Source of the DNA: Nitrospirota bacterium | Lineage (GTDB): Bacteria > Nitrospinota_A > UBA7883 > JACRGQ01 | DNA length: 17,676 bases | Assembly (NCBI GenBank): GCA_024275955.1 | Contig: JAJRYD010000041.1 | Location: 1-17,676, forward strand | Direction: 5' to 3' | Shown: positions 10,834 to 16,311 of the stretch, piece after piece | Layout: every line of letters begins with the position of its first letter | How positions within the stretch are numbered: the stretch's first letter is position 1 | Program-made: the position numbers and the translations under genes | The notes under the pieces: generated by a model | Seen by the model: the letters and a program-made list of their open reading frames with translations, nothing else | The model's database searches: none | Told to the model about the DNA's origin: nothing

Positions 10834-11358
10834 CTAGTCGTTTCTGTTACCGCAAATGTAGCCTTTACAATCTTCAAGATATGTAGTGTGGCAATGCATG
10901 CAGAACTGTGGGTTCAAACCGTTACCAGGCTCTGTGTTTGCTATCGAAACACTGTCAGCCAGAGTGATGACATCCATGTAAGGCTTGCCTTCTTTGTGAG
11001 CAGTTGTAAAACCGACACCAAGTTTAGGCAAAAGCAGAATAGCAGTCATGCCATCCGGATACTCGGAACCTTTAGCATCGTATATAGATTTCACCGCAGG
11101 ATTGATATGAGTCTCGTAGTGACCTGGATCAAGCGAGCAGTAAGCGTCAACTGTATCCTGAAGGTTCTGGTCCAAGCCAAGTGCAATTACGTTGGTACCG
11201 CATGGAGGAAACTGCCCCTTTGTTCCTACCGGCCAATCTTTCCAAAACTCAACCGCGGCAATACCCTTTTTAGCCGCCGGCGGTGCGGCCTTACTACAAG
11301 CCGATACAGTGAACGCCACTGCAAGAACAAGCGCAATACTTAAAAAAACTCTTTTCAT
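10834..11358 (-). CDS. monohaem c-type cytochrome lipoprotein
   Basis: This is a 174-residue predicted lipoprotein. The N-terminus (KR, hydrophobic core, then the lipobox VSAC with Cys21) predicts export and lipid anchoring. A single haem-attachment motif CMHCH is at 153-157, close to the C-terminus, followed by a tail with two further Cys (164 and 169); Cys53 and Cys74 are also present and could form disulfides. The YPDGMTAILLLPKLG stretch before a C-terminal CXXCH is loosely like cytochrome P460-type proteins, but I cannot confirm that family. The likely role is single-electron transfer or small-molecule binding at the envelope. The start has a strong Shine-Dalgarno (GGGGGAGAGA right before the ATG). 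It has its own promoter at 11451-11480 with a leader of roughly 85 bases and a clear terminator, so it is a separate transcription unit. Confidence 0.82.
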   Translation of the reverse strand: MKRVFLSIALVLAVAFTVSACSKAAPPAAKKGIAAVEFWKDWPVGTKGQFPPCGTNVIALGLDQNLQDTVDAYCSLDPGHYETHINPAVKSIYDAKGSEYPDGMTAILLLPKLGVGFTTAHKEGKPYMDVITLADSVSIANTEPGNGLNPQFCMHCHTTYLEDCKGYICGNRND

Positions 11359-12263: not shown

Positions 12264-12292
12264 TTGACGATTTTGCTTATAAAGAATAGAAT
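12264..12292 (+). promoter_or_regulatory. promoter of the membrane protein / Usp / radical SAM operon
   Basis: TTGACG (5 of 6) at 12264-12269 and TAGAAT (5 of 6) at 12287-12292 are separated by exactly 17 bases. Transcription would start near 12299, giving a leader of about 37 bases before the ATG at 12336. The -10 is identical to that of the lipoprotein cytochrome promoter. Confidence 0.65.
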
Positions 12293-12335
12293 TGTCCGTT
12301 CAACATTTTTTGAATAGTGGGAATTGCAAAATCAT

Positions 12336-13016
12336 ATGGAACAGATACTTAGCGGATCAGGATTTCTCTCTTCCAGGTCGAGCTTTGGCTCTGACCTTAG
12401 CCTTATTCTGGCGATAAGCTTTACCTGTCTTTATTTCGTTGCCGGATATTTTGCCGCAAAAGGGAAAGGGCTTACCCATCACAGGCTTATAATAACCTCT
12501 ACTTTGGCGATGTTTGGCTACTTCCTCTATTACTATAAGGTGAGGAACCTCGGCTACAAAAGCTTTGCCGACCAAATTGAATTCAGTAGCCTCGGCTGGA
12601 TACAGGCAAACCTATTTACGCCGGTCATATACACACATTTCCTTATAGTGGTTCTCTCTACCTTTGTCGCTCTCTATGCAATGGCAACAGGCTTTAAAGC
12701 CTCTACCAACATCAATGGTAAATTAATGCTTAAAAATGAATTAGCTACGATATCAAAGCTAGGATGGGCTTTAGGTTTTATATGGCTCGCTATCCTGCTG
12801 TGGTGGATTTTTGTTCAGCATGGCTTTAGCATCGAGTATGCCATCGCCTTCCTTATTCTCGGGTATTTTCTCCCTGTAAGCATAGCCCTTTATATACATC
12901 AGGTATTGCCAACCCTAGAGCGGAGGCACAGGGTAATCGGAAAAATCTCTATAGCTCTTTTTCTCTGTTTATTGGTCACAAGCACTCTTAGTTATTCGAT
13001 TTTATATATTCTTTGA
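12336..13016 (+). CDS. six-helix membrane protein resembling DUF420
   Basis: This is a predicted inner-membrane protein of 226 residues from the ATG at 12336; an in-frame TTG at 12324 would add four residues, but the GTGGGA just before it is better placed for the ATG. Six hydrophobic helices can be seen, for example LILAISFTCLYFVAGYFAA, LIITSTLAMFGYFLYYY and FLIVVLSTFVALYAMATGF. His residues sit at helix ends: THHR before helix 2, YTHF in helix 3, RRHR before helix 6. This His pattern, together with FLYYYKVRNLGYKSF and the terminal LSYSILYIL, resembles the DUF420 family, whose members have been linked to cytochrome oxidase assembly. The protein is longer than typical DUF420, so the assignment is tentative. 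It is the first gene of an operon: the Usp gene starts 15 bases after its stop. Confidence 0.75.
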   Translation: MEQILSGSGFLSSRSSFGSDLSLILAISFTCLYFVAGYFAAKGKGLTHHRLIITSTLAMFGYFLYYYKVRNLGYKSFADQIEFSSLGWIQANLFTPVIYTHFLIVVLSTFVALYAMATGFKASTNINGKLMLKNELATISKLGWALGFIWLAILLWWIFVQHGFSIEYAIAFLILGYFLPVSIALYIHQVLPTLERRHRVIGKISIALFLCLLVTSTLSYSILYIL

Positions 13017-13031
13017 TTGAGGTAACAAATT

Positions 13032-14222
13032 TTGTACAAGAACATTTTTACGATGCTAGATAATTCCAGCTATTCTCTTTGGTCTGTCGATTTTGCGCTG
13101 GAGCTTGCAAAACAGTTCGACTCCAGAGTAACGGGCAACCATGCCTACGCGTCAAAGCTTCATGAGGACAGGTTCATACAGATGGAGCCGGGACTTCCCG
13201 AAAAGTATCAAGCCCCTGAAGAGATACAAAAACAGCGGGATATTCATGGAAGCCTCATTGAAAGAGGCTTAGAGCTTATTTCAGATTCTTTTATCGACGT
13301 ATTTGTCGAACGTTGCGAAAAAAAGGGCATCAAAAACTACAAACGGGAAATGTCGGAAGGCAAAAACTACTCTGTACTGGTAAAAGATATAAAAAAAGCA
13401 GACTACGACCTTGTCGCAATGGGTGCCTGTGGGCTTGGAGAAGTTGAAAGCACGCAACTAGGATCGGTCTGTGAAAGAGTGAACCGCAGAATAAAGGTAG
13501 ATACCGTCATAATGAAAAATGGAACTCAGGTTCATGATGGTCATCTTGTTGTAGGAATAGACGGGAGCGAAGAATCGTTTTCCGCTATGCGAGCCGCGAT
13601 ACAGTTCAACAAACTGTTCGGCTGTAAAATAACCGCTCTCTCTGTCTTCGACCCAGAGTTTCACTACAAGGTTTTTGACAGCATCGCCAAGGTCCTTTCA
13701 GAAGAAGCTGGAAAAGTCTTTAAGTTTAAGGAGCAGGAAGCTCTCCACGAAGAGATAATAGACTCGGGACTCGAAAAAATTTATCGTGACCATCTGGAAC
13801 AGGCTATAAAAATGGCGAAAGATGAAGGGGTAGAAATCGAAGCCAAAGTCCTTTCGGGCAAAGCGTACGACGAAATAATCAAATGGGTAAAAGATAAAAA
13901 AATAGCCCTTCTTATGGTAGGAAGAATCGGAGTGCATCAGGATGAAGGCCTTGATATAGGCTCCAACTCCGAGAATCTTTTAAGAAATGCTAACTGTAAC
14001 CTGATGCTTTTTAGCAGTAAATACACACCAGCCGACCTCGAACAAGATCCATCCGACGAAGTTCAATGGACGGAAAAAGCTTTAAAGATGCTCGACCGCG
14101 TGCCGTCTTTCGTTAGAAAAATGGTGCGGGGACATATCGAAGCGAACGCCCGCAAATCGGGACAAAAACTGATTACGGAAGAGATTATGATAAAAGCACG
14201 CAAGAAAATGATGGGGCGATAG
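13032..14222 (+). CDS. tandem universal stress protein with C-terminal PCP_red-like module
   Basis: This is a 396-residue cytoplasmic protein. Two UspA domains lie at about 1-162 and 168-330. Each keeps the ATP-binding pattern G-x2-G-x9-G-S: Gly131/134/144-Ser145 in the first and Gly297/300/310-Ser311 in the second, so both may bind nucleotide. A third module at about 346-392 starts WTEKALKMLDRVPSFVRKMV and ends with ITEEIMIKARKKM; this matches the C-terminal helical domain of light-independent protochlorophyllide reductase subunit B (PCP_red). The start is TTG, supported by GAGGTAA about eight bases upstream and by the typical YKNIFTMLDNSSYS opening of Usp proteins. The next gene begins 5 bases after the stop and carries the same module several times, so the two products probably work on the same partner or ligand. 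The function is unknown; a stress-responsive role in tetrapyrrole handling is inferred. Confidence 0.88.
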   Translation: MYKNIFTMLDNSSYSLWSVDFALELAKQFDSRVTGNHAYASKLHEDRFIQMEPGLPEKYQAPEEIQKQRDIHGSLIERGLELISDSFIDVFVERCEKKGIKNYKREMSEGKNYSVLVKDIKKADYDLVAMGACGLGEVESTQLGSVCERVNRRIKVDTVIMKNGTQVHDGHLVVGIDGSEESFSAMRAAIQFNKLFGCKITALSVFDPEFHYKVFDSIAKVLSEEAGKVFKFKEQEALHEEIIDSGLEKIYRDHLEQAIKMAKDEGVEIEAKVLSGKAYDEIIKWVKDKKIALLMVGRIGVHQDEGLDIGSNSENLLRNANCNLMLFSSKYTPADLEQDPSDEVQWTEKALKMLDRVPSFVRKMVRGHIEANARKSGQKLITEEIMIKARKKMMGR

Positions 14223-14227
14223 TTTAA

Positions 14228-16102
14228 ATGAGCTTTGTACCATATGCCGTCTCGTGGAACCTTACCCAAAGGTGCAATCTTCTTTGCGAACATTGCTACA
14301 TGGATGCGGGCGAGCGTGAAAAAGGCGGCCCAGACGAACTTTCTACAAAAAAAGCGCTAGAGATTGTTGGGCAAATTGCGGAAGTAAACCCGGGAGCTGT
14401 TCTTATACTGACAGGCGGAGAGCCTCTTATGCGGGCTGACATCTACGATATCGCTTCCAAAGCTTCGGGTCTTGGCATGATGGTAGTGCTAGGCACGAAC
14501 GGAACGATGCTGACAGCCGAAACAGTAAAAAAGCTAAAGGAATCCGGCGTATCAGGCATAGGGATAAGCATAGACTCTCTCGATGAAACTCTGCACGATT
14601 CATTCAGGGGACTTAAAGGCGCGTTAAAAAAATCAATCGCCGGTCTCGAAGCGGCGCGCGACGGCGGGCTGGAAGTACAGGTACAAACCACCCCAACCAC
14701 TAAAAACCTTGACGAAATACCAAAGATAGCCGAGTGGGCTCATAACTTTGGCGCGAAGGTTTTTAACCTTTTCTTTCTTGTATGCACAGGCAGAGGAGAA
14801 GAGATGGCCGACATCACGCCGGAGGAATACGAAAAAGTCCTCAAATGGGCGGTAGAGGCGCAGAGTGAATTCTCTGGAATGATGATACGCCCAAAATGCG
14901 CCCCCCACTTCAAACGGATTCTTTATCAAACAGAAAAGAACCACCCGTTACTAAGCACATATATAGCGGCATGCAGAGCCGGCACGCACTATTGCAGAAT
15001 AACTCCAAACGGAGAGGTGACACCCTGCCCTTACATGCCTCAAACTTCTGGCGATTTAAAAGAGGTCTCCTTTAAAGAGATTTGGGAAGAGTCGTCTTCA
15101 TTAACGCAGTTCCGCACGCCGGAGTATGGTGGCAAATGCGGGCTGTGCGCTTACAGGCTTTTGTGCGGTGGTTGCCGAGCAAGAGCATACGCAGAGCTTG
15201 GCGATGTTATGCAGGAAGACCAGTGGTGCGTCTACGAGCCTATCGCGATGGAAAAAGCGATAGAAAACCCAGATACGCAGGCAAAGTTCGCAACAGCAGA
15301 GCCGGTAGGCGACATAAATGAAAAGTGGAGCGATGAGGCAAAAGAAAAGCTTTCGCGGATGCCGGTGTTCGCGCGCTCTATTGTACAAAAAGCTTCAGAA
15401 AAATATGCCGATGATAACAACATAGATGAAATTACTGTTGAAGTAATGAGGACAGCCGCGCCGCCTCCAGCTCAGTTCGTTGGCAAAAACTTCGGCAAGC
15501 CGACCGGCAAAATAGAAGATGGCCGGAAAGATAAAGAAGAAAGAAAAGAAGACGACGTTGAATGGGACGAAGACGCGAAAGCACGGCTGGAAGACGCGCC
15601 AGACTTCGTACGGCCCGGAATACGCAAGCTTATGCAAAAACGGGCAAGAGAGCGAAGCCAAAAAAAAATAACAACAGAATTTCTTACAGAGATAAGAAAC
15701 GAATCTATGATGCTGGTTACGAGGCGTGTCAAGAAAATGGGGTTCGATAAGATGGAAATGTCTGCGTGGGACAAAGCAAAAGATATTTTCAAAAAGTCGA
15801 GCGTCAAAAAAGAGACTATAGATACCATCGCCAGTTTTCTTGATAAACGCGAAGTAGTAAACGAAGATATGATAAAGAAATTTGAAAGCTACTTGGAAGA
15901 CGACTCCAAATCAATCGGATGGGAAAAAGAGGCGAAGGAACGGCTGGCAAAAGCGCCATTTTTTGTAAGGAACAAGGCGAAAGCTTTTATAGAACAACAT
16001 GCAAAAGAGAACGGCTACAGGTACGTTACCCTCAAAGCGGTAGAAGAGGCGATGGCAAACCTGCCGATGGGAAAAATGTTTTCAAAGCCAAATAAAGGCT
16101 AA
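14228..16102 (+). CDS. radical SAM/SPASM enzyme (NirJ/AhbC/AhbD-like) with repeated PCP_red modules
   Basis: This is a 624-residue protein. The radical SAM core has C-x3-C-x2-C at Cys16, 20 and 23 in NLTQRCNLLCEHCYMDAG, and TGGEP at 62-66 for SAM binding. The RPKCAPHFK segment (Cys224) and the SPASM-type cysteines 249, 256, 267, 304, 307, 313, 316 and 334, in CGLC...CGGCRARAYAELGD...WC, fit the haem-biosynthesis radical SAM group (NirJ, AhbC, AhbD). These enzymes act on sirohaem-derived side chains or coproporphyrin. From 367 to the end come PCP_red-like modules with the pattern W-x3-A-x3-L-x3-P-x-F-x-R: clear copies at about 367-412, 446-492 and 565-610, and a degenerate copy at about 514-556. 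A charged linker (about 425-445) separates the first two. The catalytic part normally ends near 340, so nearly half the protein is this added region. It is the last gene of the operon. The substrate is not known. Confidence 0.9.
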   Translation: MSFVPYAVSWNLTQRCNLLCEHCYMDAGEREKGGPDELSTKKALEIVGQIAEVNPGAVLILTGGEPLMRADIYDIASKASGLGMMVVLGTNGTMLTAETVKKLKESGVSGIGISIDSLDETLHDSFRGLKGALKKSIAGLEAARDGGLEVQVQTTPTTKNLDEIPKIAEWAHNFGAKVFNLFFLVCTGRGEEMADITPEEYEKVLKWAVEAQSEFSGMMIRPKCAPHFKRILYQTEKNHPLLSTYIAACRAGTHYCRITPNGEVTPCPYMPQTSGDLKEVSFKEIWEESSSLTQFRTPEYGGKCGLCAYRLLCGGCRARAYAELGDVMQEDQWCVYEPIAMEKAIENPDTQAKFATAEPVGDINEKWSDEAKEKLSRMPVFARSIVQKASEKYADDNNIDEITVEVMRTAAPPPAQFVGKNFGKPTGKIEDGRKDKEERKEDDVEWDEDAKARLEDAPDFVRPGIRKLMQKRARERSQKKITTEFLTEIRNESMMLVTRRVKKMGFDKMEMSAWDKAKDIFKKSSVKKETIDTIASFLDKREVVNEDMIKKFESYLEDDSKSIGWEKEAKERLAKAPFFVRNKAKAFIEQHAKENGYRYVTLKAVEEAMANLPMGKMFSKPNKG

Positions 16103-16230: not shown

Positions 16231-16294
16231 CAGTCTTATGAGCCATATACGTCAAACATTTTCCTCGACCACTTTCGAGAGCTTAATCAACTAA
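16223..16294 (+). CDS. short 23-residue ORF, possible leader peptide or decayed porin start
   Basis: The ATG is preceded by AAGGGG at 16212-16217 with a 5-base gap, a good ribosome site. It encodes MFNSLMSHIRQTFSSTTFES plus LIN and stops with TAA at 16292-16294, inside the 26-bp palindrome. The first residues (MFNSL) echo the porin start (MFKKL), and the leader is a diverged copy of the porin leader. I see two readings: a translated leader peptide whose stop in the palindrome couples translation to the structure, or the remains of a duplicated porin gene. No homologue is recognised. Confidence 0.35.
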   Translation: MFNSLMSHIRQTFSSTTFESLIN

Positions 16295-16311
16295 TCAATT
16301 GATTAGTTGAT
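16286..16311 (+). promoter_or_regulatory. perfect 26-bp palindrome, probable operator
   Basis: The half-site ATCAACTAATCAA is followed directly by its exact reverse complement, with no spacer and no mismatch. It lies 18 bases upstream of the -35 region of the predicted porin promoter. It is not followed by a T run, so it is unlikely to be a terminator. A dimeric regulator (for example MarR- or TetR-like) binding here is the simplest reading. Confidence 0.65.

Follow-up and report, generated by a model that had tools for sequence, protein, structure and literature searches.

Cytochrome bd-like oxidases of the OR-N CydAA' type have been described in Nitrospirales and Nitrospinota; cytochrome c is thought to be their electron donor, and their subunit composition and function are unconfirmed experimentally (PMC10839748, PMC12342949). 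Most Nitrospira probably rely on OR-type enzymes as their main terminal oxidase, and Nitrospinota conserve them too, their haems and assembly being unsettled. The published descriptions consulted present the oxidase without biogenesis genes. Assembly of canonical cytochrome bd requires the haem transporter CydDC (PMC10374445). In this study, we analysed a contig of 17,676 nucleotides from a Nitrospirota bacterium (JAJRYD010000041.1; G000:C30), whose entire length is hereafter called the window. On its forward strand it encodes a DUF420 membrane protein, a tandem universal stress protein (Usp) and a radical SAM/SPASM enzyme, the last two carrying the PCP_red domain (Table 1). An earlier reading of the window's sequence (hereafter the original prediction) saw in these genes a tetrapyrrole or haem system acting under stress. 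The central fact absent from it is a link between the Usp-radical SAM pair and an OR-type CydA-like oxidase. We propose that a radical SAM enzyme of tetrapyrrole-family descent has been recruited as an oxidase biogenesis factor.

Conservation of the gene pair and its linkage to a CydA-like oxidase

Of the 24 genomes of the window's phylum that we searched, the window's own genome among them, 23 contain PCP_red. The Usp and radical SAM genes are adjacent in most of these, where contigs allow; G023 has them on separate contigs. The pair was also detected in Sedimenticola, Polarisedimenticolaceae, a Lamellibrachia symbiont, a deltaproteobacterial metagenome-assembled genome and Nitrospirota. One Nitrospirota lineage keeps the pair with a Usp protein devoid of PCP_red and a radical SAM protein carrying a single copy. 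Since the two genes recur as neighbours in nearly all relatives, their adjacency is far beyond chance, and the claim that they belong together was upheld: they are usually, not rarely, adjacent. Four gammaproteobacterial-type loci and two Nitrospirota genomes have a protoporphyrinogen oxidase gene as the next gene after the pair; in the gammaproteobacterial loci it is of the HemY type (TIGR00562, 239.5 bits, cut-off 97.9).

We observed the pair in direct proximity to an oxidase in several lineages. In gammaproteobacterial loci it lies near genes for a CydA-like membrane protein (PF01654, N-terminal half) and cytochromes c. All 33 CydA-carrying genomes of one gammaproteobacterial order also have the Usp gene (33/33). 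Both genes are on one contig in 26 of them, at a distance of 4.2-5.2 kb in 25 of these 26, and in each of the four loci read the radical SAM gene is followed by HemY. The pair and CydA are divergent in gammaproteobacteria. A single-strand array, CydA-cytochrome c-cytochrome c-Usp-radical SAM-HemY, is present in G095 (L146). In G157 (L160) the order is cytochrome c-cytochrome c-CydA-Usp-radical SAM, all on the same strand, with about 22 bases between CydA and Usp and about 15 between Usp and radical SAM. Related neighbourhoods were found in a deltaproteobacterial locus (L054), in Nitrospirota (G039/L130) and in the window's phylum (G012/L084 and G018/L090). The window's own genome likewise contains the components of an OR-type oxidase, namely a CydA-like gene (683 residues) and three adjacent cytochrome c genes, together with a cytochrome b gene, at about 88-97 kb of contig G000:C40. 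The sigma-54 response regulator beside this cluster has a close relative by the gammaproteobacterial radical SAM-HemY genes (E-value 1e-131), and others in G012, near the pair, and in G023, near DUF420-Usp.

The distribution of the pair follows that of the oxidase. Among 245 Nitrospirota genomes, 104 carry both the Usp and the CydA-like gene, 3 Usp only, 5 CydA only and 133 neither (phi coefficient 0.93). The corresponding counts for 195 genomes of the gammaproteobacterial order were 33, 3, 0 and 159 (phi 0.95). Within the window's phylum, the pair is present in 23 of 24 genomes and a CydA-like gene in 21, and G008 lacks both the pair and this gene. The association of the pair, scored by Usp, with the haem-copper oxidase (PF00115) was negative in the same 245 Nitrospirota genomes (phi -0.32); the pair is therefore not merely a sign of oxygen respiration. 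This negative association also led us to reject the pair as a general marker of aerobic life.

The pair and the OR-type oxidase might be merely co-moved parts of one chemolithotrophic gene package, without any direct functional tie. Autotrophs that oxidise sulfur or nitrite are likely to make up many of the carriers, and the window's genome, like some others, has the pair and the oxidase at separate loci. However, the pair is found beside CydA in unrelated lineages and in different arrangements, divergent in gammaproteobacteria and, in G157 and G095, following CydA within a single array, and we regard simple co-transfer as distinctly improbable. An earlier report of the linkage was not found in the literature, of which open-licence papers only were searchable; as far as that literature goes, the module has not been described before.

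In the linked oxidase, alignment to solved CydA showed that the histidine equivalent to H19 of Escherichia coli CydA is kept and that an alanine occupies the position of H186, a b558 ligand in E. coli. Like the OR-N/OR-C CydAA' oxidases of Nitrospira and Nitrospinota, it is CydA-like, has cytochrome c partners and gives no strong full-length match to canonical CydA. Its assignment to the OR type is ours, made from architecture and distribution.

The radical SAM protein and its relation to AhbC, AhbD and NirJ

The protein is a radical SAM/SPASM enzyme, with a CxxxCxxC motif and a SPASM domain whose seven cysteines (C249, C267, C304, C307, C313, C316 and C334) are invariant in the alignment. Its closest sequence relatives are the haem b synthase AhbD and AhbC/NirJ, which have the same architecture and belong to the tetrapyrrole pathway family. 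It scored 339 bits against NirJ2 (TIGR04055) and 333 bits against the AhbD equivalog model (TIGR04545), under the cut-off of 500 in both cases, and 188 bits against NirJ (TIGR04051, cut-off 515). By these models it is a member of none of the three families, and it falls outside the AhbD clade. In a tree of 64 sequences, all radical SAM proteins from Usp-paired loci fall in one clade (Shimodaira-Hasegawa-like approximate likelihood ratio test 95) adjoining bacterial and archaeal AhbD. The description of the enzyme as NirJ/Ahb-like in the original prediction agrees with the NirJ2 and AhbD scores and with this position.

The window's genome encodes separate members of the family. An AhbD-like protein on contig G000:C10 (465 bits, cut-off 500), which is inside the AhbD clade of the tree although under the cut-off, adjoins an AhbC/NirJ1-like protein (588 bits to NirJ1), and a NirJ-like protein is found on G000:C34 (459 bits). 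The separate clade and these three proteins point to a fourth tetrapyrrole-family member in one genome, apparently with its own job. They also led us to reject the protein as the main haem b or haem d1 enzyme. That it is nevertheless simply an AhbD or a haem d1 enzyme to which a tail has been added would account for its scores to the AhbD and NirJ2 models; yet both scores are too low, a better AhbD lies beside AhbC, a NirJ-like protein is present and the clade is distinct, which makes this explanation extremely improbable. The window-type enzyme further differs from AhbD, AhbC and NirJ by a Usp partner in nearly all loci read, by its C-terminal PCP_red and by being tied to an oxidase rather than to ahb or nir genes.

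The main competing explanation is that the enzyme modifies a peptide of the oxidase complex, by a cross-link or at a side chain of CydA or a partner cytochrome, with the Usp-PCP_red protein presenting the peptide. The enzyme would then be a maturation factor and not a haem enzyme. The invariance of all seven auxiliary cysteines is in line with this, as is the oxidase linkage, which would be the same. The closest solved folds to its predicted model are moreover the peptide enzymes SuiB, SkfB, PqqE and anSME. That fold search returned SPASM and other radical SAM enzymes and left the PCP_red part uncovered; because neither a solved AhbD nor a solved NirJ was among the matches, the ranking is uninformative. 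Against a peptide substrate, sequence and tree group the enzyme with AhbD and NirJ, which act on tetrapyrroles (PMC7242693), and HemY is adjacent in several genomes. We consider peptide modification unlikely, if the most serious of the alternatives.

The PCP_red modules

PCP_red (PF08369) is a 45-residue domain with a curated cut-off of 32.5 bits. Profile searches placed four copies of the locus in this family, at 47-57 bits each: one in the Usp protein and three in the radical SAM protein (whole-protein E-value 1.8e-38, Pfam). The repeats therefore belong to PCP_red, as had been predicted. Of the five copies claimed, the fifth, degenerate one gave no match to the PCP_red profile, even with all filters off and E-values up to 100. 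In the predicted model of the radical SAM protein (mean predicted local distance difference test score 80.5), three helices at residues 512-520, 525-539 and 546-556 are similar in order and length to those of the true copies, and residues 512-556 may be a decayed copy.

The domain is shared with BchB/ChlB, a subunit of dark-operative protochlorophyllide reductase, through the C-terminal domain alone, so that the window genes are not members of that family: they have no nitrogenase-like core, no BchN or BchL fusion and no photosynthesis context. A genome profile search found PCP_red only in these four copies in the window's own genome, hence no BchB. A photosynthesis remnant was rejected, as the genome has neither BchB nor a further PCP_red gene.

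Other genes carry the domain elsewhere. In the window's phylum, tiny PCP_red genes of 56-57 residues adjoin MoaA (L045:7912-8082) and a MoaA-like gene (L044:2925-3095), 2-22 bases apart, and PCP_red stretches are near MoaA-like genes in L036, L046 and L049 as well. PCP_red thus has a second, molybdenum-cofactor context. At L078:5355-6684, L093:4857-6100 and L084:11862-13127, a protein of about 140 residues, CxxC-rich at its N terminus and with PCP_red at its C terminus, is encoded after a NUBPL/Mrp-like iron-sulfur carrier ATPase; fusions to rubredoxin-like and CGGC domains were also seen. These contexts favour docking or redox contact over tetrapyrrole binding, and PCP_red as a tetrapyrrole-specific module was left unsupported. 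The ligand-binding part suggested earlier was not borne out either, given the same contexts and fusions and the absence of PCP_red from Usp in the pair-keeping Nitrospirota lineage.

Loci from archaea, Thermodesulfobacteriota and other deltaproteobacteria encode further PCP_red proteins: radical SAM proteins some 504 residues long with an N-terminal PCP_red (L132:1649-3160 and L133:3204-4715), a PCP_red-CGGC protein of 184 residues (L135:4706-5257) and a similar open reading frame of 185 residues (L138:6818-7375).

The Usp protein

Both Usp domains (PF00582) keep the G-2x-G-9x-G-S nucleotide-binding motif, whose glycines are invariant columns of the alignment, and the protein is of the tandem type. 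Its predicted model resembles the ATP-bound tandem Usp 3ab8 (Z 27.8, root-mean-square deviation 2.8, 256 aligned) and 3cis (Z 27.6, deviation 3.3, 276 aligned). It has two Usp domains with nucleotide-binding motifs in common with TTHA0350, Rv2623 and UspE, and differs from them by its PCP_red tail and by a distinctive set of conserved residues, H37, H44, R47, Q50, H72, H211, H239 and H302 being invariant. The conserved nucleotide sites and the invariant histidines suggest, at the level of sequence, a carrier or a gate.

Of the tetrapyrrole or haem system under stress seen in the original prediction, the haem-enzyme context stands, through the Ahb/NirJ relative, the HemY neighbour and the oxidase. 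The part "under stress" found no support: the Usp fold binds nucleotides, and it is one type of oxidase, not stress genes, that the pair tracks. Co-expression with the oxidase of a sensor or protection module, in which Usp reports on oxygen or on energy state while damaged haem is repaired or degraded by the radical SAM enzyme, would fit with membership in the Usp family and with the sigma-54 two-component genes near both loci. Several UspA proteins, which may or may not include the window-type Usp, are up at low oxygen in Nitrospira marina (PMC8115632). The pair, however, follows one oxidase type and not haem-copper oxidases, and descent from AhbD suggests a role in synthesis more readily than one in repair; we find such a module rather improbable.

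Locus organization and neighbouring genes

The three open reading frames are separated by 15 and 5 bases, which confirmed the positions and spacing given earlier. The near-consensus promoter reported upstream is present as a site, but sites of this quality are no commoner than in shuffled sequence (5 found, 6.7 +/- 2.8 expected), and it was discarded as a special feature because of this chance-level frequency.

The DUF420 assignment is borderline: the whole protein passes the cut-off of 30.5 bits, and the score was 29.3 bits in the genome-wide stretch search. DUF420 is immediately 5' of the Usp gene in five genomes, all from the window's phylum. In the Nitrospirota genome G158, DUF420 and a double PCP_red protein adjoin CydA, and a long DUF420 lies about 7 kb from the CydA-like gene in four other large Nitrospirota genomes. 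The association of DUF420 with oxidases that had been put forward was thus recovered in a new form, as proximity to CydA-like genes.

Table 1. Features of the Usp-radical SAM locus, in window coordinates.
Feature	Position	Strand	Basis
Sigma-70-like promoter match, TTGACG-17-TAGAAT	12264..12292	+	10/12 consensus positions
DUF420 membrane protein	12324..13016	+	PF04238, 32.2 bits; TTG start as listed, in-frame ATG four codons on
Tandem Usp with C-terminal PCP_red	13032..14222	+	PF00582 x2, 111 bits; PF08369, 53 bits
PCP_red copy, Usp protein	14067..14201	+	56.7 bits; match to 2kru, solved C-terminal domain of BchB, E 1.4e-6
Radical SAM/SPASM enzyme (AhbD-sister clade) with PCP_red tail	14228..16102	+	Pfam profiles, NirJ2/AhbD models, alignment, tree
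Radical SAM core with CxxxCxxC	14258..14737	+	residues 11-170, PF04055, 95 bits; C16, C20, C23 invariant
SPASM auxiliary cluster domain	14972..15148	+	residues 249-307, PF13186, 38 bits
PCP_red copy 1, radical SAM protein	15326..15457	+	53.4 bits
PCP_red copy 2, radical SAM protein	15563..15694	+	47.4 bits
Possible degenerate PCP_red copy, radical SAM residues 512-556	15761..15895	+	helix pattern in predicted model
PCP_red copy 3, radical SAM protein	15920..16051	+	54.6 bits

Other features were noted around the pair and the oxidase. A perfect 26-base palindrome, ATCAACTAATCAATTGATTAGTTGAT, is located at 16286-16311 of the window between the radical SAM gene and a porin gene, and is possibly an operator. 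The window also encodes a multihaem cytochrome with many CxxCH motifs (773-2065) and a small lipoprotein-like protein with a single CxxCH (10834-11358). Downstream of the pair in close relatives (L080:2777-8445), conserved thioredoxin-like, CcmH-like, DsbD-like, formylglycine-enzyme-like and putative haem-binding genes together resemble a cluster for cytochrome c biogenesis. In the window's own genome (L098, G000:C40:85001-105000), a corrinoid-binding protein and a URO-D/2Fe-2S/RACo fusion (956 residues) adjoin the CydA cluster, with a sigma-54 response regulator on one side of them and a PAS histidine kinase on the other; L075 and L085 have the same fusion and kinase close to the pair. Between CydA and Usp, gammaproteobacteria conserve a HEAT-repeat protein and a periplasmic-type protein with a beta-sandwich fold, "cup" (L051:4688-7959 and L052:4209-7477); proteins related to "cup" are found next to CydA in L102, L103 and L105 as well.

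Proposed function and implications

We consider it likely that the pair serves oxidase biogenesis in a broad sense. More specifically, and with somewhat less assurance, we favour the reading that the pair, joined by DUF420 in some genomes, is a module devoted to the biogenesis of the CydA-like OR-type oxidase with its cytochrome c partners. Haem tailoring in particular is plausible, a little short of probable. Comparative genomics establishes the link to the oxidase. The biochemical steps, all of which we infer, would be as follows. The radical SAM/SPASM enzyme, an AhbD paralogue, would tailor a haem or haem precursor, the enzyme family and HemY both suggesting a tetrapyrrole substrate. The tandem Usp, with its two intact nucleotide-binding sites, would hold or hand over the substrate or gate the reaction, and docking, either between the two proteins or with a reductant, would fall to the PCP_red modules. 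DUF420 may aid assembly at the membrane, and the HemY-type protoporphyrinogen oxidase may provide an extra oxidation step in some genomes. The product would then enter the OR-type oxidase. If so, the pair would have the same purpose as CydDC, that of a dedicated haem-loading helper, with unrelated proteins and with radical SAM chemistry instead of ATP-binding cassette transport.

Several observations weigh against this proposal. The pair and CydA are at different places in the window's own genome and in putative Nitrospira genomes. Of the pair and CydA, one occurs without the other in G048, G054, G273, G375, G441 and G458, in G071, G158, G209, G233 and G278, and in G003 and G021 of the window's phylum. 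Draft gaps could be behind some of these mismatches. Three of them, G441, G375 and G458, are genomes of the gammaproteobacterial order with a Usp gene and no CydA-like match, and in G441 the Usp gene is on a contig of more than 1.4 Mb, which makes an assembly gap less likely. Because members of one clade are not independent samples, the evidence is weaker than the phi values suggest, adjacency being less affected; for this reason we rely mainly on the recurrent linkage in varied arrangements and separate lineages. Finally, SPASM enzymes often act on peptides, as do the closest solved folds, and haem binding is a prediction of the proposal.

The proposed module would offer two or three named genes as a handle for building an OR-type oxidase and for its heterologous expression. 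It would also explain the combination of a stress protein, a photosynthesis-enzyme domain and a haem-type radical SAM enzyme without invoking photosynthesis or stress. If haem tailoring is correct, the enzyme would be a fourth member of the AhbC/AhbD/NirJ radical SAM tetrapyrrole family and, to our knowledge, the first known to be tied to oxygen reduction. It is possible, and we suggest this only tentatively, that the module is a branch of radical SAM haem synthesis dedicated to one terminal oxidase family and makes an undescribed modified haem, perhaps d-type or altered in a side chain, that is required by the OR-type oxidases of Nitrospira, sulfur-oxidising symbionts and related chemolithotrophs.

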